From positions 4,424,501-4,488,500 of the forward strand of contig NZ_LT629783.1 of assembly GCF_900105835.1 (NCBI RefSeq): 64,000 bases of DNA. Direction: 5' to 3'. The notes under the pieces were generated by a model that was not told the DNA's origin, searched no databases, and saw only the letters and a program-made list of their open reading frames with translations. Both the position numbers and the translations under genes were made by a program. This stretch comes from Pseudomonas fragi. GTDB taxonomy: Bacteria; Pseudomonadota; Gammaproteobacteria; Pseudomonadales; Pseudomonadaceae. Shown in pieces: positions 34,302 through 42,161 of this stretch (its first letter is position 1; each line of letters starts with the position of its first letter).

Positions 34302-36881
34302 TTAAAGGCGTGTCTTTAATGTGTAGAGAAAATCAAGCGCTTTACGTGGCGTCATGTTGTCCAGATCCAGCCTGGAAAGGTCGTCCAGCACCGGGTGCGG
34401 CAGGCTGGCAAACAGGTCGCTTTGCTGCGGCGCAGGCTTTTTGCCGGGCTTGGCAGGTGGCACTTCATGGGGCAGGCTGGTGGTCTCCAGGCGGCTCAAA
34501 TGCTCGCGGGCGCGGCGGATAACTTCACTCGGTACGCCCGCCAGTTGCGCTACGGCCAGGCCATAGCTCTGGCTGGCCGGGCCTGGCAGCACATGGTGCA
34601 GGAACACGATGCGTTCGTTGTGCTCGGTCGCGCTCAAATGCACGTTGGCGACCAGCGGCTCGTTCTCGGGCAGTACCGTCAGCTCGAAGTAGTGCGTGGC
34701 AAACAGGGTGTAGGCGCGCAATTGGGCGAGACGTTCTGCCGCAGCCCAGGCCAGCGACAAACCGTCGAATGTGCTAGTGCCGCGGCCCACTTCGTCCATC
34801 AGCACCAGGCTGCGTTCGGTGGCATTGTGCAAGATATTGGCGGTTTCGCTCATCTCGACCATAAAGGTCGAACGGCCACCAGCCAGGTCATCGCTGGAGC
34901 CGATCCGGGTGAAGATGCGGTCCACCAGCGACAGTTCACAGCTGGCCGCCGGTACAAAACTGCCGATATGGGCCAGCAGCACGATCAATGCGGTTTGGCG
35001 CATGTAGGTCGATTTACCGCCCATGTTAGGACCGGTGATCACCAGCATGCGGGTGTTGTCGTCCAGCCCCAGGTCGTTGGCCACAAACGGCGTGGTCAGT
35101 ACCTGCTCGACCACAGGGTGGCGACCCTGGCTGATACGCATGCACGGCTCTTCAACAAAGCGCGGGCAGTTCAGGTCCAGGTTCAGTGCACGCTCGGCCA
35201 GGTTGCTCAGCACATCCAGCTCGGCCAGTGCGGCGGCGGTGTCCTGCAGCGGCGCGAGGTGGCCGATCATTTCTTCGAGCAAAGCCTCATACAGCATCTT
35301 CTCGCGGGCCAGGGCGCGGCTTTTCGCTGAAAGGGCCTTGTCTTCGAAGGCTTTGAGTTCCGGGGTGATAAAGCGCTCGGCGCCCTTGAGCGTCTGGCGC
35401 CGGATGTAATCGGCCGGTGCCTGCTCGGCCTGTTTGCTTGGCAGCTCGATAAAGTAACCGTGGACGCGGTTGTAACCGACCTTGAGGTTGGACAACCCGG
35501 TGCGGGCCTTTTCCCGGGCTTCGAGGTCAATCAGGAACTGGCCGGCGTTTTCGCTCAGAGCTTGCAGCTCATCCAGCTCGGCGTCATAGCCGGTTTTCAG
35601 TACACCACCATCGCGGATCACCGCTGGCGGGTTGTCATTGATAGCCTTTTCCAGCAGGGCGCCCAGCTCGGGGTAAGTGCTGGTGGTCATGGCCAGTTGC
35701 TGCAAGTGCGGTGCTTCGAGGCCGAGCATGGCGTCTTGCAGTTCTGGCAGCGCGTTCAAGGCATCACGCAGGCGTGCCAAGTCGCGGGGGCGGGCATTGC
35801 GCAGGCCGATACGGGCGAGAATCCGCTCCAGATCGCCGATTTCCTTAAGCTGAGGCTGCAGCTTTTCAAAGCGATAGCCATCGAGCAGGCAAGTGATCGA
35901 CGACTGGCGTGCCAGCAGCACGCTCAAATCGCGCAGCGGGCGGTTCAACCAGCGGGTCAGCAAGCGGCTGCCCATCGAGGTCTGGCAGCGGTCGACCACC
36001 GATTGCAGGGTGTTGTCGCGGCCACCGGCCAGGTTGGTGTCCAGTTCCAGGTTACGGCGGCTGGCACCGTCGAGCACCACGGTGTCGTCCAGGCGCTCAT
36101 GGCGCAGGCTGCGCAAATGGGGCAGGGCAGTGCGCTGGGTTTCCTTGGCGTAACTGAGCAGGCAACCGGCTGCGCCAATGGCCAGGGTCAGGTTTTCGCA
36201 GCCAAAGCCCTTGAGGTCCTGGGTCGAGAATTGCTGGCACAGGCTTTTGAGCGCCGAGTCGCGCTCAAAGTCCCACGGCGCACGGCGACGAACGCCACGA
36301 CGTTTTTCCGCAGGCAAGCCTTGCGGCCAGTCATCCGGGATCATCAGCTCGACCGGGTTGATGCGCTCAAGCTCGGCCAGCAGGTTTTCCCAGCCCTTGA
36401 TCTCCAGCACCGAGAAATTGCCGCTGGTGATATCCAGCACGGCGAGGCCAAACAGGCGCTCATCGCCCAGTACGGCGGCAATCAGGTTGTCGCGGCGCTC
36501 ATCCATCAGCGCCTCGTCACTCACGGTGCCCGGGGTGATGATACGAACTACCTGACGCTCAACCGGGCCTTTGCTGGTGGCCGGGTCGCCGACCTGCTCG
36601 CAGATCACCACCGACTCGCCCAGCTTGACCAGCTTGGCCAGGTAGCCTTCGGCCGCATGATAAGGGATCCCGCACATCGGAATCGCCTGGCCGGCAGACT
36701 GGCCGCGTGCCGTGAGGGTGATATCCAGCAACTTGGCGGCTTTCTTCGCGTCTTCGTAGAAGATCTCGTAGAAATCGCCCATGCGATAGAACATCAGCTG
36801 GTCAGGGTGCTGGTTCTTCAGGCGCCAGTACTGCTGCATCATCGGCGTGTGGCTGGACAGGTCGGAGGTATTTTTACTCAT
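34302..36881 (-). CDS. mutS: DNA mismatch repair protein MutS
   Basis: Recognises mismatches and starts repair with MutL. I choose the start at 36881 ([13 protein letters not shown]), giving 859 residues; 51 further open codons upstream are unlike the family. The mismatch-reading Phe-x-Glu is in [11 protein letters not shown]. The ATPase core has Walker [18 protein letters not shown], the [15 protein letters not shown] signature, Walker [17 protein letters not shown] and the [10 protein letters not shown] helix. The C-terminal helix-turn-helix dimerisation segment is complete. Confidence 0.96.
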
Positions 36882-37010
36882 CAGGGCTTGGGCGGATTCG
36901 TTCAGAAGTGGGGGAAAGGCAGGCGCGTGGCCTGAGGTTTTCGCAATGGGCGCAAGGTTAACATGCCAGCCCCCTGCATCTACAGGTGCGCACCGGGCGC
37001 ACTGACACGT

Positions 37011-37033
37011 TGCTATAAATAGAAGAAATAGCA
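37011..37033. promoter_or_regulatory. Candidate repressor operator at the repressor gene start
   Basis: TGCTAT-N11-ATAGCA is an inverted repeat 38 bases before the repressor ATG and 130 bases upstream of mutS. Its position fits autorepression by the S24-type repressor. Confidence 0.6.
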
Positions 37034-37070
37034 TTTGCCATCAATAAACACGGCCAGCACTATTGCCGCC

Positions 37071-37796
37071 ATGTCCAAACGAACAGTTTCAACCGTCCTT
37101 AAAGAGCTGCTGGCCCGGCACGGCATCAGTGCGATGACGCTGCACCGCAGCACCGGGGTGCCGCAACCTACGTTGTCGCGGATTTTGAGCGGCAAGATTG
37201 CCGATCCTTCCGACAGGCATATCTCCAAAATCGCCGAGTACTTCCACATCAGTACCGATCGCCTGCGCGGGCGGGACGATGTGCGTGTGTCAGAAATCGA
37301 GCTATGTCACCCAGAGTTGCGTGATATTTGCCTGTGGGATGACGACACCCCAGTGGCGGACGATGAAGTGTCCATTCCGTTTCTGCGTCAGGTTGAACTG
37401 GCCGCCGGCTCAGGGCGCTTTGCCATTGAAGAGAGCGAACGCGCCAAGTTGCGTTTCGGCAAGCGCAGCCTGCGCCATAACGGTGTGGAGTTCGATCATG
37501 CCAAGTGCGTGACCGTACGCGGCGACAGTATGCTGCCAGTGCTGCGCGATGGCGCAACGGTGGGGGTCAATGCGGGCAAGCGCACGCTGGACGAAGTCAT
37601 TGATGGCGACCTGTATGCGGTCAATCATAACGGCCAGCTACGGGTCAAACAGTTGTATCGCCTGGCGGGCGGCATTCGTTTGCGCAGCTTCAACCGCGAC
37701 GAGTTCCCGGATGAGGATTATGCCTACAACGATCTGGAGGATGAACAGCTGGTCATTCTCGGTCATGTCTTCTGGTGGGGCATGTACGCCCGCTAG
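37071..37796 (+). CDS. S24 (LexA-like) phage-type transcriptional repressor, PrtR-like
   Basis: A 241-residue self-cleaving repressor. The ATG at 37071 (MSKRTVSTVLKELL) is preferred over an upstream TTG. The N-terminal helix-turn-helix (about residues 8-60) contains MTLHRSTGVPQPTLSRILSG. The C-terminal peptidase has the Ala-Gly cleavage site in VELAAGSGRF, catalytic Ser in VRGDSMLPVLRDG and Lys in GQLRVKQLYRL. In Pseudomonas tailocin and pyocin clusters such proteins (PrtR) hold lysis and tail genes off until RecA activation. Here it lies next to mutS with only a holin downstream, so it looks like the regulator of a lost or reduced cluster. Confidence 0.88.
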   Translation: MSKRTVSTVLKELLARHGISAMTLHRSTGVPQPTLSRILSGKIADPSDRHISKIAEYFHISTDRLRGRDDVRVSEIELCHPELRDICLWDDDTPVADDEVSIPFLRQVELAAGSGRFAIEESERAKLRFGKRSLRHNGVEFDHAKCVTVRGDSMLPVLRDGATVGVNAGKRTLDEVIDGDLYAVNHNGQLRVKQLYRLAGGIRLRSFNRDEFPDEDYAYNDLEDEQLVILGHVFWWGMYAR

Positions 37797-37816
37797 CCAC
37801 AAGATTCTGAAAATCC

Positions 37817-37870
37817 TGCGGGAGCCAGCCTGCTCGCGAACAAGCCTTCGTGAGCAGGCTCGCTCCCGCA
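37817..37870. repeat. Short REP pair downstream of the repressor gene
   Basis: Compact hairpin of two diverged REP arms (TGCGGGAGCCAGCCTGCTCG and its mirrored partner), directly after the repressor stop. It may also serve as a transcript end. Confidence 0.8.
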
Positions 37871-37955
37871 GCAGTATTGGCTACGCCATCAAGCAGACAA
37901 TTCCCACCGTATTTGCAGGTCCTGGCCGGCTTGTTGAAATTGTGCGAATAAATAT

Positions 37956-37988
37956 ATGCACTGGTGCATTGACTGTATATCCATACAT
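37956..37988. promoter_or_regulatory. Palindrome and LexA-like box upstream of the holin gene
   Basis: ATGCAC-TG-GTGCAT (37956-37969) is followed by CTGTATATCCATACAT (37973-37988), which matches the Pseudomonas LexA consensus CTG-N10-CAG except for its last base. Either could be the control site of the holin transcript by LexA or by the neighbouring repressor. Confidence 0.5.
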
Positions 37989-38095
37989 GCATAGTCTTTG
38001 TTCCATTGCCGCCAACGATGGATCTCGGGCAGGGGTATGACGTTTCAGTCAGGCCGGAAATTGGCGCTTATCAATAAGGACACAGGAGTGATCAC

Positions 38096-38440
38096 ATGAT
38101 GAATGAACCGCAAGTCTTGCTGGAAATGCCGGTTTTACTGGTCATCCTCCTTGCGTTGGTGGGCGGCGTTTTTGGCGAGATGTGGCGGGCAGACAAGGAT
38201 GGCGCCAGCGGCTGGCCGCTGATGCGGCGCCTGGCGTTGCGGTCGGGAGCCTGCATGGTGTGCGGCGTATCGACCTTTATGTTGCTGTACTCGGCCGGGA
38301 TGTCGGTTTTGGCGGCCGGTGCCCTGGGTTGCCTGACCGCCCTGGCAGGTGCGGATGCAGCCATCAGCCTGTACCAGCGCTGGGCTGCGAAGCGGCTGGG
38401 GGTCGACGGTTCGCCCGGCGATTCGCGGATCGAGCCGTAG
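38096..38440 (+). CDS. Phage/tailocin-type holin
   Basis: A 114-residue membrane protein with three predicted helices (about residues 11-28, 52-70, 72-92) and a charged tail, matching the holin that opens the R-type tailocin clusters of P. fluorescens. The ribosome site AGGAG stands 7 bases before the first of two ATGs. Holins form membrane lesions that release endolysin; no endolysin or spanin gene is present nearby. The gene ends 53 bases before cinA, so the structural genes that usually follow are missing. Confidence 0.78.
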   Translation: MMNEPQVLLEMPVLLVILLALVGGVFGEMWRADKDGASGWPLMRRLALRSGACMVCGVSTFMLLYSAGMSVLAAGALGCLTALAGADAAISLYQRWAAKRLGVDGSPGDSRIEP

Positions 38441-38493
38441 AACACGGCTTTTTGGTGTAGGTTATGACCCGGACCCGCGATCAGGAGAGGACA

Positions 38494-38994
38494 GTGGATC
38501 AGATTTCTCAACGTGCAGCTGAACTCGGGCTGCTGTTAAAGGCTCTTAATGCCCAGGTGACGACCGCCGAGTCCTGTACCGGTGGCGGCATTGCCGAAGC
38601 CATCACCCGTATTGCCGGCAGCTCCGCCTGGTTCGAGGCGGGGTTTGTGACCTACTCCAACCAGCAAAAGACCCGGCAATTGCTGGTTCCCGAGGCCTTG
38701 TTCACACAAGTGGGGGCCGTCAGTCGCGAGGTGGTCGAAGCGATGGTGCGCGGTGCGCAGGCGCAAAGCGGGGCGCAGTTCGCTGTGGCGGTGAGCGGTG
38801 TGGCCGGGCCGGGTGGCGGTTCGCCCGAGAAGCCGGTCGGTACCGTGTGGCTGGCCTGGGGCGCTGGCGATGAGGTGTCCAGCGAGCGCAGGCACTTTGC
38901 GGGCAATCGCGATGAAGTCCGCCAGCAAACCGTGATTGCGGCCCTGGAAGGCTTAATACGCCGAACGGTACGAGAAATAAAAAATCAGGGGTAG
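38494..38994 (+). CDS. cinA: Nicotinamide-nucleotide amidase, CinA C-terminal domain type
   Basis: A stand-alone CinA C-terminal (PncC) protein that deamidates nicotinamide mononucleotide to nicotinate mononucleotide for NAD recycling. The GTG at 38494, a few bases after AGGAGAGG, gives 166 residues; the ATG ten codons upstream has a poorer site. Motifs are [15 protein letters not shown] and [20 protein letters not shown]. It is the conserved right flank of the tailocin insertion locus and precedes recA. Confidence 0.92.
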
Positions 38995-40192: not shown

Positions 40193-40660
40193 ATGATTGC
40201 CGTCCTGGATACTCCCGTCGCGGTGCGACGGACTGCAATGGACCTGCTCGCGCGACGCGAGCACGGTCGGGTCGAGCTGACGCGCAAGTTGCGTCAGCGC
40301 GGCGCTTGCCCCGACATGATCGACGCTGCCCTTGACCGTCTCACGGAAGAGGGGCTGTTGTCCGAGTCCCGTTATCTCGAAAGCTATATCAACTACCGTG
40401 CCGGTTCCGGTTATGGCCCTTTGCGTATTCGCGAAGAGCTTAGCCAGCGAGGCCTTGCGCGCGGCGATATTGAAGAGGCGTTACGCGAATGTGACTTCAA
40501 CTGGCAAGAACGGTTGGAGGAAACCTGGCGTCGCAAGTTTTCCGGGCAGGTGCCTGTCGATGCCAAGGAGCGTGCCCGCCAGGGGCGCTTCTTGAGCTAT
40601 CGCGGCTATCCGCTTGAAATGATCGGCCGCCTGTTAAGCGGCCGAGAGTTTGACGACTGA
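40193..40660 (+). CDS. recX: RecA modulator RecX
   Basis: A 155-residue inhibitor of RecA filament extension. The three-helix RecX repeats are visible: [22 protein letters not shown], then [21 protein letters not shown], and a last repeat ending [22 protein letters not shown]. It is co-transcribed with recA. Its last 27 codons (from 40577) lie inside a 236-base tandem duplication, so a second, untranslated copy of its 3' end follows downstream. Confidence 0.94.
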
Positions 40661-40697
40661 AACGGTTGGCGGTCGTACCCTGTGGGCGCCGCAAACC

Positions 40698-40783
40698 TGT
40701 GGGAGCTGGCTTGCCTGCGATGGCAGCAATGCGGTTTGCCTGCCAGACGTGCCGCCCGCATCGCGAGCAAACCCGCTCCCACA
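40698..40783. repeat. REP pair in duplication copy 1
   Basis: Arms begin TGTGGGAGCTGGCTTGCCTG and end AACCCGCTCCCACA. The right arm differs from copy 2 by one base. Confidence 0.88.
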
Positions 40784-40933
40784 GTAACAGCCCGCTTACC
40801 CATTCCGGCTTACGCCAGGGGCGCTTCTTGAGCTATCGCGGCTATCCGCTTGAAATGATCGGCCGCCTGTTAAGCGGCCGAGAGTTTGACGATTGAAACG
40901 GTTGGCGGTCGTACCCAGTGGGCGCCGCAAACC

Positions 40934-41019
40934 TGTGGGAGCTGGCTTGCCTGCGATGGCAGCAATGCGGTTTGCCTGCCAGTCGTGCCGCCCGCATCGC
41001 GAGCAAGCCCGCTCCCACA
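40934..41019. repeat. REP pair in duplication copy 2
   Basis: As copy 1, exactly 236 bases further right, with the right arm reading AAGCCCGCTCCCACA. Confidence 0.88.
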
Positions 41020-41045
41020 GTAACAGCCCGCTTACCCATTCCGGC

Positions 41046-42161
41046 TTAATCAGCCAGTGACTCGCGCACCTGCGCAGTGGACACGCTGTCAGCTGTCGCC
41101 CAGTTGTGCGGCAGGTTGATAAAGTCGACCAGTTCGCGCAGCCGTCCCTGATTACGCCCGCTGAATGCAAAGCCCAGGCAGGTGAGGTGGTTGAGCTTCG
41201 GGTCGTCATGCTCAAAGCTGCAATAAGCCTGTTGGTGGAAGCCATCGTTAAGGCAAATGTCCGCAAAATCCTGTTGTATCTGCTTGAGAGCCAGCGCACT
41301 GACGGGTTTCTTCATGCGGATCACAAAAGTTTTGTTCAGCCAGCGGCTTGAATGGAAGTTGCTGTAGAACTGGTTGATTTCAGCCAGTGCCTCTTCGGCG
41401 CTGTGAACCAGGCGCATCAGCTTCAAGTCGTTGGGCAGAATGTAGTGGTTGGCTTCCAGTTGGTTATGGATAAAGTCCAGTGCGCCTTGCCAAAACGATC
41501 CGCCGGGCACATCGAGCAAAACCACCGGTACCAGCGGGGTTTTACCGGTCTGCATCAATGTCAGCACTTCCAGCACTTCATCCAGCGTGCCAAACCCGCC
41601 CGGGCACATCACCAATGCATCGGCTTCCTTGGTGAAGAACAGTTTGCGGGTAAAGAAAAAGTGAAACGCCAGCACATTGGGCGTGCCATTGATGGTGGGG
41701 TTGGCCCGTTGCTCAAATGGCAGGGTGATATTGAACCCCAGGCTGTGGGCCAGGCCCGCGCCTTCATGGGCCGCGGCCATGATGCCTGCGCCGCCGCCGG
41801 TGATGACCATCATGTCGTCTTTTGCCAGCACGGCCCCCATTTCCCGGGCTAGGGCATACAGCGGGTGCTCAATCGGGGTTCTTGCCGAGCCGAAGACCGT
41901 GACTTTGCGTCGGCCCTTGAACTGCTCCAGCGTGCGAAAGGTCTTTTCCAGTTCGCGAATGGCCTGCAGGGTGATCTTGGCATTCCAGCGATCAAGGTCG
42001 TCATGGGCCATGCGCAGCACGGTCAGCAACATCTCGCGATAGAGTGCGCGGTTCGGGCTGTCGGGGGCTACCCGTTGCAGTTGTTCGTCGACCTCATGAG
42101 CAAGATCCAGCCCCTGCTCCTGCAAATGCAGCGCCAGGGAATCATTGGATTGGTCAGGCAT
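41046..42161 (-). CDS. LOG-family (Rossmann-fold nucleotide-binding) protein
   Basis: A 371-residue protein with a LOG/TIGR00730-like domain after about 100 N-terminal residues. The start at 42161 (MPDQSNDSLALHLQ) is set by AAGGAG nearby; 38 more open codons lie upstream without family likeness. GGGAGIMAAAHEGA, the FFFTRKLFF helix and the catalytic-type PGGFGTLDEVLEVL motif are present. LOG proteins cleave nucleotide monophosphates such as cytokinin precursors; this longer form may have another substrate. It ends at the stop codon inside duplication copy 2. Confidence 0.88.
   Translation of the reverse strand: MPDQSNDSLALHLQEQGLDLAHEVDEQLQRVAPDSPNRALYREMLLTVLRMAHDDLDRWNAKITLQAIRELEKTFRTLEQFKGRRKVTVFGSARTPIEHPLYALAREMGAVLAKDDMMVITGGGAGIMAAAHEGAGLAHSLGFNITLPFEQRANPTINGTPNVLAFHFFFTRKLFFTKEADALVMCPGGFGTLDEVLEVLTLMQTGKTPLVPVVLLDVPGGSFWQGALDFIHNQLEANHYILPNDLKLMRLVHSAEEALAEINQFYSNFHSSRWLNKTFVIRMKKPVSALALKQIQQDFADICLNDGFHQQAYCSFEHDDPKLNHLTCLGFAFSGRNQGRLRELVDFINLPHNWATADSVSTAQVRESLAD

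Follow-up and report, generated by a model that had tools for sequence, protein, structure and literature searches.

The tailocin locus between mutS and cinA in the Pseudomonas genome studied here had probably been reduced to an SOS switch, and this switch was probably kept as a functional DNA damage-induced holin module leading to death or leakage. The genome was a single contig of 5.07 Mb with P. fragi F1801 as its closest named kin by mutS (95% DNA identity), and the stretch analyzed was positions 4,424,501 to 4,488,500 (64,000 nucleotides; designated the window, whose coordinates are used below). The mutS–cinA interval, lying between the mutS start at 36881 (minus strand) and the cinA start at 38494 (GTG), contained two genes only, a repressor gene and a holin gene, both on the plus strand. 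The features of the locus were as follows:

36942..36965, no strand assigned: mutS-side flank, probable left limit of the inserted unit; like the flank in some module-free Pseudomonas genomes, the L132 and L136 intervals containing a block that looks similar by eye
37071–37796, plus strand: PrtR-like LexA/CI-family repressor, 241 aa, HTH plus S24 peptidase
37816..37871, no strand assigned: REP-like long hairpin situated after the repressor stop and before the holin promoter, 25-nt arms 92% complementary
37957..37997, plus strand: holin promoter–operator block, composed of O1, TTGACT (37969–37974), degenerate O2 (37980–37991), and TAGTCT (37992–37997)
37957..37968, plus strand: putative PrtR operator O1, TGCA-N4-TGCA, immediately 5′ of the −35 hexamer and conserved in relatives
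37973..37988, plus strand: LexA-box-like CTGT-N8-ACAT overlapping the −35, the exact form CTGT-N8-ACAG occurring in 3 of the 15 group members
38096–38440, plus strand: holin, 114 aa, PF16085 Phage_holin_3_5, phrog_3897
38454..38464, plus strand: GGTGTAGGTTA element conserved upstream of cinA, where the inserted unit probably ends on the right; similar, by eye, at this position in several module-free genomes

The repressor matched Peptidase_S24 (PF00717; E 4e-20) and HTH_3 in Pfam plus the phrog_4 repressor profile. The holin scored 163.9 bits against PF16085 (curated cut-off 27) and displayed high hydropathy at its N-terminus and over residues about 45–95, and this combination of a profile score above the cut-off with hydrophobic segments assigned it to the PF16085 holins (superfamily III); it would comprise 113 aa if translation started at the second Met (38099), which was common to 14 relatives (see below). 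NCBIfam assigned the holin to no family and gave nothing above cut-off for the repressor, and the repressor had no match at E 0.01 among solved-structure sequences. The coordinates and Pfam matches bore out the preliminary description, in which only an S24 repressor and a holin separated mutS from cinA, with 53 bases from the holin stop (38440) to the cinA start (38494).

Residues A84–G85, S119, and K156 of E. coli LexA aligned with A112–G113, S153, and K193 of the window repressor, and the cleavage-site Ala–Gly, Ser, and Lys were present in all 82 repressors of the comparison, which came from 80 loci, L130, and the window, confirming their retention as read earlier from the window. With HTH and S24 domains and these residues, the protein belonged to the LexA/CI S24 self-cleaving repressors and would be expected to answer RecA by self-cleavage. 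Elsewhere in the same genome, a CI/S24-like repressor with about 30% identity to that of the window stood as an orphan (C1:3856095-3856853; L039:6095-6853); by eye, the ORF list around it contained no evident phage genes, and its Lys position was apparently Arg.

Two tailocin/pyocin records supplied 29 query proteins, among them lysins, spanins, and 18 tail queries; at E 1e-6, the repressor and holin alone of these matched the window. The parts that define R/F-type tailocins were distributed as follows: (i) PrtR-like repressor, holin, and their promoter were present at mutS–cinA; (ii) tail sheath, tube, and baseplate genes were found neither in the window (18 tail queries) nor in the 14 closest loci L040 to L053; and (iii) linked endolysin plus spanin was found neither at the window locus nor in L040 to L053, none of which matched the tail, endolysin, or spanin queries. 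The earlier statement that tail, baseplate, endolysin, and spanin genes were missing thus held at the locus for the 29 queries, but it failed for endolysin genome-wide, since two GH19 matches were located outside the locus, of which at least one belonged to a prophage.

The window locus occupied the same chromosomal site as the P. fluorescens-group mutS–cinA tailocin/prophage 01 loci of Pf-5, Q8r1-96, SBW25, and CHA0, and it shared with 54 tail-bearing mutS–cinA loci the repressor family (about 75% identical), the holin family (about 65–77%), the promoter block, and the distance of this block from prtR. The earlier designation of mutS–cinA as a tailocin hotspot agreed with this shared promoter and with published descriptions. 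Unlike the P. fluorescens-group loci, the window locus had no tail, baseplate, tail-fibre, endolysin, or spanin genes, and it was devoid of the Com/orf4 genes that separate prtR from hol in Q8r1-96 and in certain other loci, so that the promoter directly preceded the holin. The window holin was identical to Q8r1-96 Hol at 77 of 113 positions and to the holin of the R-pyocin-like record OQ658366 at 65 of 113.

Three other systems offer partial parallels. The Cid/Lrg death regulators include a chromosomal holin-type protein without linked endolysin, as in the window, but have a different regulator and probably belong to a different protein family. P. aeruginosa R/F pyocins, with their PrtR–Hol–Lys set, had a self-cleaving repressor and a PF16085-type holin as in the window, but they are placed at a different site, trpE–trpG (PMC10598620), and use the activator PrtN and their own lysin, neither of which was found at the window locus; PrtR without PrtN is reported for plant-associated pseudomonads (PMC10598620). 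In the P. aeruginosa AlpR–AlpA–AlpBCDE system, the likeness lay in the control of a holin-type lysis gene, after DNA damage, by a repressor that cleaves itself, cleavage of AlpR being reported to start a death pathway (PMC7969949). Unlike that system, the window locus had no multi-gene lysis cassette, and no antiterminator gene was noticed in an ORF survey: across 15 loci, the largest ORF fully enclosed in the repressor–holin gap had 71 aa, and most such ORFs were antisense (judged on ORFs).

The promoter block spanned 41 bp about 100 bases 5′ of the holin, and 30 of its 41 columns were invariant in 15 fragi-group sequences, compared with 16 of 234 in the remainder of the repressor–holin intergenic region (columns outside the block and outside the last 30 bases). 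In all 54 tail-bearing loci, a matching block was located 845–858 bp from the prtR start, with at most seven mismatches in 53; it ended with TATTCT in 46 of the 54, a better −10 than the TAGTCT of the window. The latter was weak (3/6), and because of this a promoter scan of the window did not report the holin promoter. Half a dyad had been lost from O2 in the fragi group. Outside the group, a promoter-like block was recognized in eight of nine tail-less loci (L074, L078, L079, L081, L087, L107, L112, L115, and L130), L074 being unclear. The full block occurred once in the studied genome and once in each of 14 relatives, a single one of which had an additional three-mismatch match. No second perfect TGCA-N4-TGCATTGAC was present in the studied genome; the shorter O1 pattern had 11 one-mismatch matches (1 for the reversed control), with which further targets of an O1-type operator elsewhere in the genome would be compatible. 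The TGCA dyads were taken as putative PrtR operators. As for the LexA-like site, its ACAT form was present in 40 of 67 other loci and absent from 27 (stretch 720–1150 bp from the prtR start), and in at least one of the 40 (L081) it lay outside the promoter block. For the SBW25 tailocin operon, described as SOS-linked, an upstream LexA site has been reported (PMC8544851).

A repressor scan of named genomes kept 80 loci out of 311 confirmed relatives, and the 14 closest loci, L040 to L053, came from P. fragi, P. bubulae, P. psychrophila, P. paraversuta, P. helleri, P. saxonica, P. lundensis, P. weihenstephanensis, and other kin. In all 14, the repressor was followed by the holin and the holin by cinA, both module genes being open to the expected stop (repressors of 240–244 aa and holins of 105–114 codons); since order and open frames were the same in all 14 relatives found, the repressor–holin pair was far beyond chance. 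Tail-less relatives with inactivated genes, named earlier as potential counter-evidence, were not encountered: neither the 14 relatives nor the window (15 sequences) carried an inactivating mutation in repressor or holin. The mutS gene beside prtR was whole in 12 of the 14, ran off the contig in L045, and was cut to its first 17 codons in L050. In L050 (P. lundensis L1802; L050:1-4635) these 17 codons were followed by other genes, which represented either a real mutS loss (possible mutator) or an assembly fault.

A repressor-based scan shows only repressor-bearing genomes; a second draw, independent of the repressor, was made by cinA from 398 genus members. All 10 genomes whose cinA was at least 83% identical (the studied genome plus nine, which partly overlapped the 14 repressor-drawn loci as judged by contig coordinates) contained the pair. 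None of the next 20 genomes by cinA had prtR or holin (at least 50% identity) within 1.5 kb of cinA, 18 of them had a tailocin-type lysin there, and two (L182 and L196) had no match to prtR, holin, lysis, or tail queries. The two-gene form was thus widespread rather than recent (14/14 loci and 10/10 by cinA) in the comparison that the preliminary description had proposed, and on this distribution the tail-less pair is no recent scar but goes back to the shared ancestor of the P. fragi/lundensis group.

The median dN/dS (NG86 pairwise; 3 of 105 prtR pairs were saturated and excluded from the median) was 0.053 for prtR, 0.048 for holin, 0.046 for recA, 0.073 for cinA, and 0.077 for recX in 15 sequences, together with 0.143 for fdxA (13 sequences) and 0.023 for mutS (14 sequences, one partial). 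Purifying selection, suggested earlier as something to look for, was thus recA-like on both module genes. The holin gave dN/dS values of 0 to 0.17 in two sets of four tail-bearing relatives, so the lone holin was not relaxed in the fragi clade. A level of constraint on repressor and holin close to that of core genes suggests that the pair is useful in itself, as a switch for self-sacrifice or leakage; conservation alone would also fit a non-lethal membrane role. Of the two earlier alternatives, deletion remnant or kept minimal module, the latter was favored by clade-wide conservation, purifying selection, and the conserved promoter, and a recent or decaying remnant was not, an old deletion being likely as the origin (see below).

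The reading as a kept holin module builds directly on what sequence comparison showed: the genes present, their clade-wide retention under purifying selection, the conserved promoter, the catalytic residues, and the recurrence of the tail-less state. The module would represent the control head of the mutS–cinA tailocin locus, namely PrtR-like repressor, operator–promoter, and first lysis gene (holin), with tail, endolysin, and spanin gone. PrtR would keep the single holin promoter shut, and LexA may form a second lock on it; upon DNA damage, RecA filaments would provoke PrtR self-cleavage, the holin would then be made in damaged cells, and the inner membrane would be opened or depolarised, after which the cell would die or leak, or lyse if a resident-prophage endolysin were present. 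The outcome would be release of DNA and cytoplasmic goods, or abortion of plasmid or phage invasion. We infer this course from damage through PrtR cleavage and holin synthesis to membrane failure from the relatives' literature together with the locus anatomy; PrtR binding to the dyads, the RecA response, holin lethality in P. fragi, and a benefit are likewise presumed. The benefit could lie in abortive death, in the release of DNA or vesicles, or in a shared lysis gate; each would fit.

Holin-only killing by the Pf-5 holin PFL_1211 is less clear than it appears, since pLysS carries T7 lysozyme and the pLysS host used for its expression thus supplies this enzyme. Expression of PFL_1211 in that E. 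coli host is reported as lethal (PMC2647930), and over-expression of the SBW25 holin PFLU1169 as severely costly (PMC8544851). Plasmid carriage in SBW25 is further reported to raise holin via SOS, the authors speculating on suicide against plasmids (PMC8544851).

It is possible, though rather unlikely, that the locus holin acts as a lysis gate shared with partners in trans, releasing endolysins and cargo made elsewhere (prophage GH19 lysins and bacteriocins) after SOS. This would agree with the GH19 lysin matches in 13 of the 15 group genomes (the only one in G414 carrying a stop), the PF00959 lysozymes elsewhere in 6 of the 15, the adjoining of hol by a colicin M gene in Q8r1-96, and the P. 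aeruginosa case, in which the three holins Hol, AlpB, and CidA are reported to feed one endolysin, with DNA release (PMC8131026). However, prophage partners come and go and the holin stays: a PF16085 holin was present at the mutS–cinA locus in 15/15 group genomes and was the sole PF16085 holin in 7, while prophages with their own PF16085 holin coexisted with it in several others. Moreover, the draft genome G419, alone among the 15, matched neither GH19 nor PF00959, so that full lysis cannot be general.

Elsewhere in the studied genome, tail genes traced by the baseplate family PF04717 lay at two sites, 1.19 and 1.24 Mb, within two prophages. Both prophages had an integrase, a GpA terminase, and an S24 repressor of their own, and a portal protein was Pfam-confirmed in the first and recognized through phage-record matches in the second. 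Relocation of the tail cluster elsewhere in the genome was rejected, both PF04717 sites sitting in prophages with their own S24 repressors, and tail genes governed by the locus repressor, which had been named earlier as potential counter-evidence, were not found at these sites, and the full promoter occurred only once in the genome. The two prophages were neighbors (C1:1185001-1259100; L035 to L038), and the PF16085 holin of the first (C1:1201144-1201449) had an in-frame TAG, while that of the second was open. In two other group genomes, a phage-type lysozyme (PF00959) was located about 29–30 kb downstream of the locus (G418:C34:130419 and G424:C10:591882), possibly at one shared prophage site. 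The Q8r1-96 colicin M gene (L151:3621-4436) lay directly 3′ of the holin in a tail-bearing locus, and the holin promoter there may also drive soluble bacteriocins.

The 66 loci outside the 14 were divided into (i) 54 with tail matches (only a partial set in L118); (ii) eight without tail or lysin matches and with cinA in view (L074, L078, L079, L081, L087, L107, L112, and L115), among which L112 contained a spanin fragment; (iii) three tail-less loci with lysin and spanin (L101, L106, and L104, the contig of L104 ending before cinA); and (iv) L077, left unclassed because its contig ended 1.3 kb after the holin. The holin was present in 80/80 loci, and the repressor was so by construction, tail-less loci included, since loci outside the group were found via the repressor. 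The whole module was absent from nine mutS–cinA intervals of other Pseudomonas. On a mutS tree of 67 rows (omitting L050 with no usable mutS, L045 with 278 codons only, L112, and L130, and scoring lysis-only loci as not tail-less), the tail-less label needed five changes to or from, all five forced by well-supported branches in this quick search. The preliminary description had noticed the two-gene state correctly, but its age and recurrence were under-called in view of the clade-wide retention and these five changes. In P2-type loci, the holin is followed by a phrog_1072 gene (unknown function). This gene was found in 44 of the 80 loci and was kept in whole or in part in L078, L107, and L115, which are therefore explained by deletion.

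For the fragi clade, an old deletion is the likely origin and the simplest reading, although no tail remnant was found as a scar: in an outgroup-rooted mutS subset of 52 rows (quick tree), the clade was nested within a supported set of 36 rows, the others in this set being tail-bearing, lysis-only, nested tail-less, or unjudged (L077), with module-free mutS–cinA intervals falling outside. The same nesting, subject to this tree being quick and to tail cassettes also moving horizontally, makes it improbable that the pair was the old occupant of the site, to which tail cassettes were added later in other lineages. Such an ancestral unit would be compatible with the favored reading and would agree with the absence of tail matches from the window and the 14 fragi-group loci, from lineage A (L074 and L079), and from two searched members of lineage B (L081, L087, and L130), with the close repressor–holin–cinA spacing shared by lineages A and B, and with the long stems of their holins. 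In these two tail-less lineages, holins had diverged much faster than adjacent repressors: the holin-to-prtR distance ratio was 2.9 in A and 3.5 in B, compared with 1.3 in the fragi clade and 1.8 in a yardstick of 17 chosen tail-bearing loci, and a role change after tail loss is possible in A and B.

The holin, cinA, recA, and recX genes were all in the same orientation, and the holin–cinA gap was 45–111 bases in 15/15. This arrangement might suggest that derepressed transcription from the holin promoter enters cinA–recA–recX and tunes these SOS genes, the holin itself being tamed; such a role is very unlikely, given that the conserved element upstream of cinA was kept as in module-free genomes, that a terminator-like hairpin was present at the holin stop (in the window; none was noticed by eye in the aligned relatives), and that the holin protein was itself strongly constrained. 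Least credible of all is an evolutionary leftover, with the two flanking genes persisting by inertia after deletion of the tail cluster, for which the nesting of the fragi clade among tail-bearing relatives and the graded losses elsewhere (lysin plus spanin in L101 and L106, a spanin piece in L112, and the post-holin gene in L078, L107, and L115) could be adduced, but against which stand the dN/dS of about 0.05, the lack of null alleles in 15 sequences, the promoter conservation, and the viability of the other Pseudomonas without the whole module.

The tail-less form occurred in at least four further Pseudomonas lineages, two of them equally minimal. It is plausible, though short of probable, that tailocin loci were repeatedly domesticated into minimal SOS-triggered suicide switches, each composed of a single repressor able to cleave itself, a single promoter flanked by dyads, and a single holin, with no weapon and no lysin, and under recA-like constraint across the P. 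fragi/lundensis group. If so, this would be the smallest chromosomal programmed-death (or anti-plasmid or anti-phage abortive) circuit of its type; we know of no smaller one. Tailocin holins are explained as the exit for the weapon; here the exit gene and the damage sensor would have outlived the weapon across a species group, which would allow a direct test of whether SOS-triggered death or leakage is profitable in itself, through DNA release, vesicles, or the stopping of plasmids or phages. Both P. fragi and P. lundensis spoil chill-stored food, and a damage-triggered death switch in them would be of practical interest too. The hotspot, repressor, and holin are already published, with prtR–hol and lys described as conserved segments around a recombination hotspot (PMC2647930, PMC7815802, PMC8319346) and the tailocin cluster reported missing in 1 of 12 strains (PMC8319346); no description of the lone repressor–holin form was found among the open-licence papers searched.

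Two repeat structures were further observed in the window. The region containing the REP-like hairpin (37797–37900) had a folding energy of −54.5 kcal/mol (z −8), and the hairpin sequence was resembled in some, not all, group members in the part of the alignment viewed. A 236-bp tandem duplication (40577–41048; 98% identical) covered the recX 3′ end and the REP-rich region downstream of it, resulting in a second partial recX tail.
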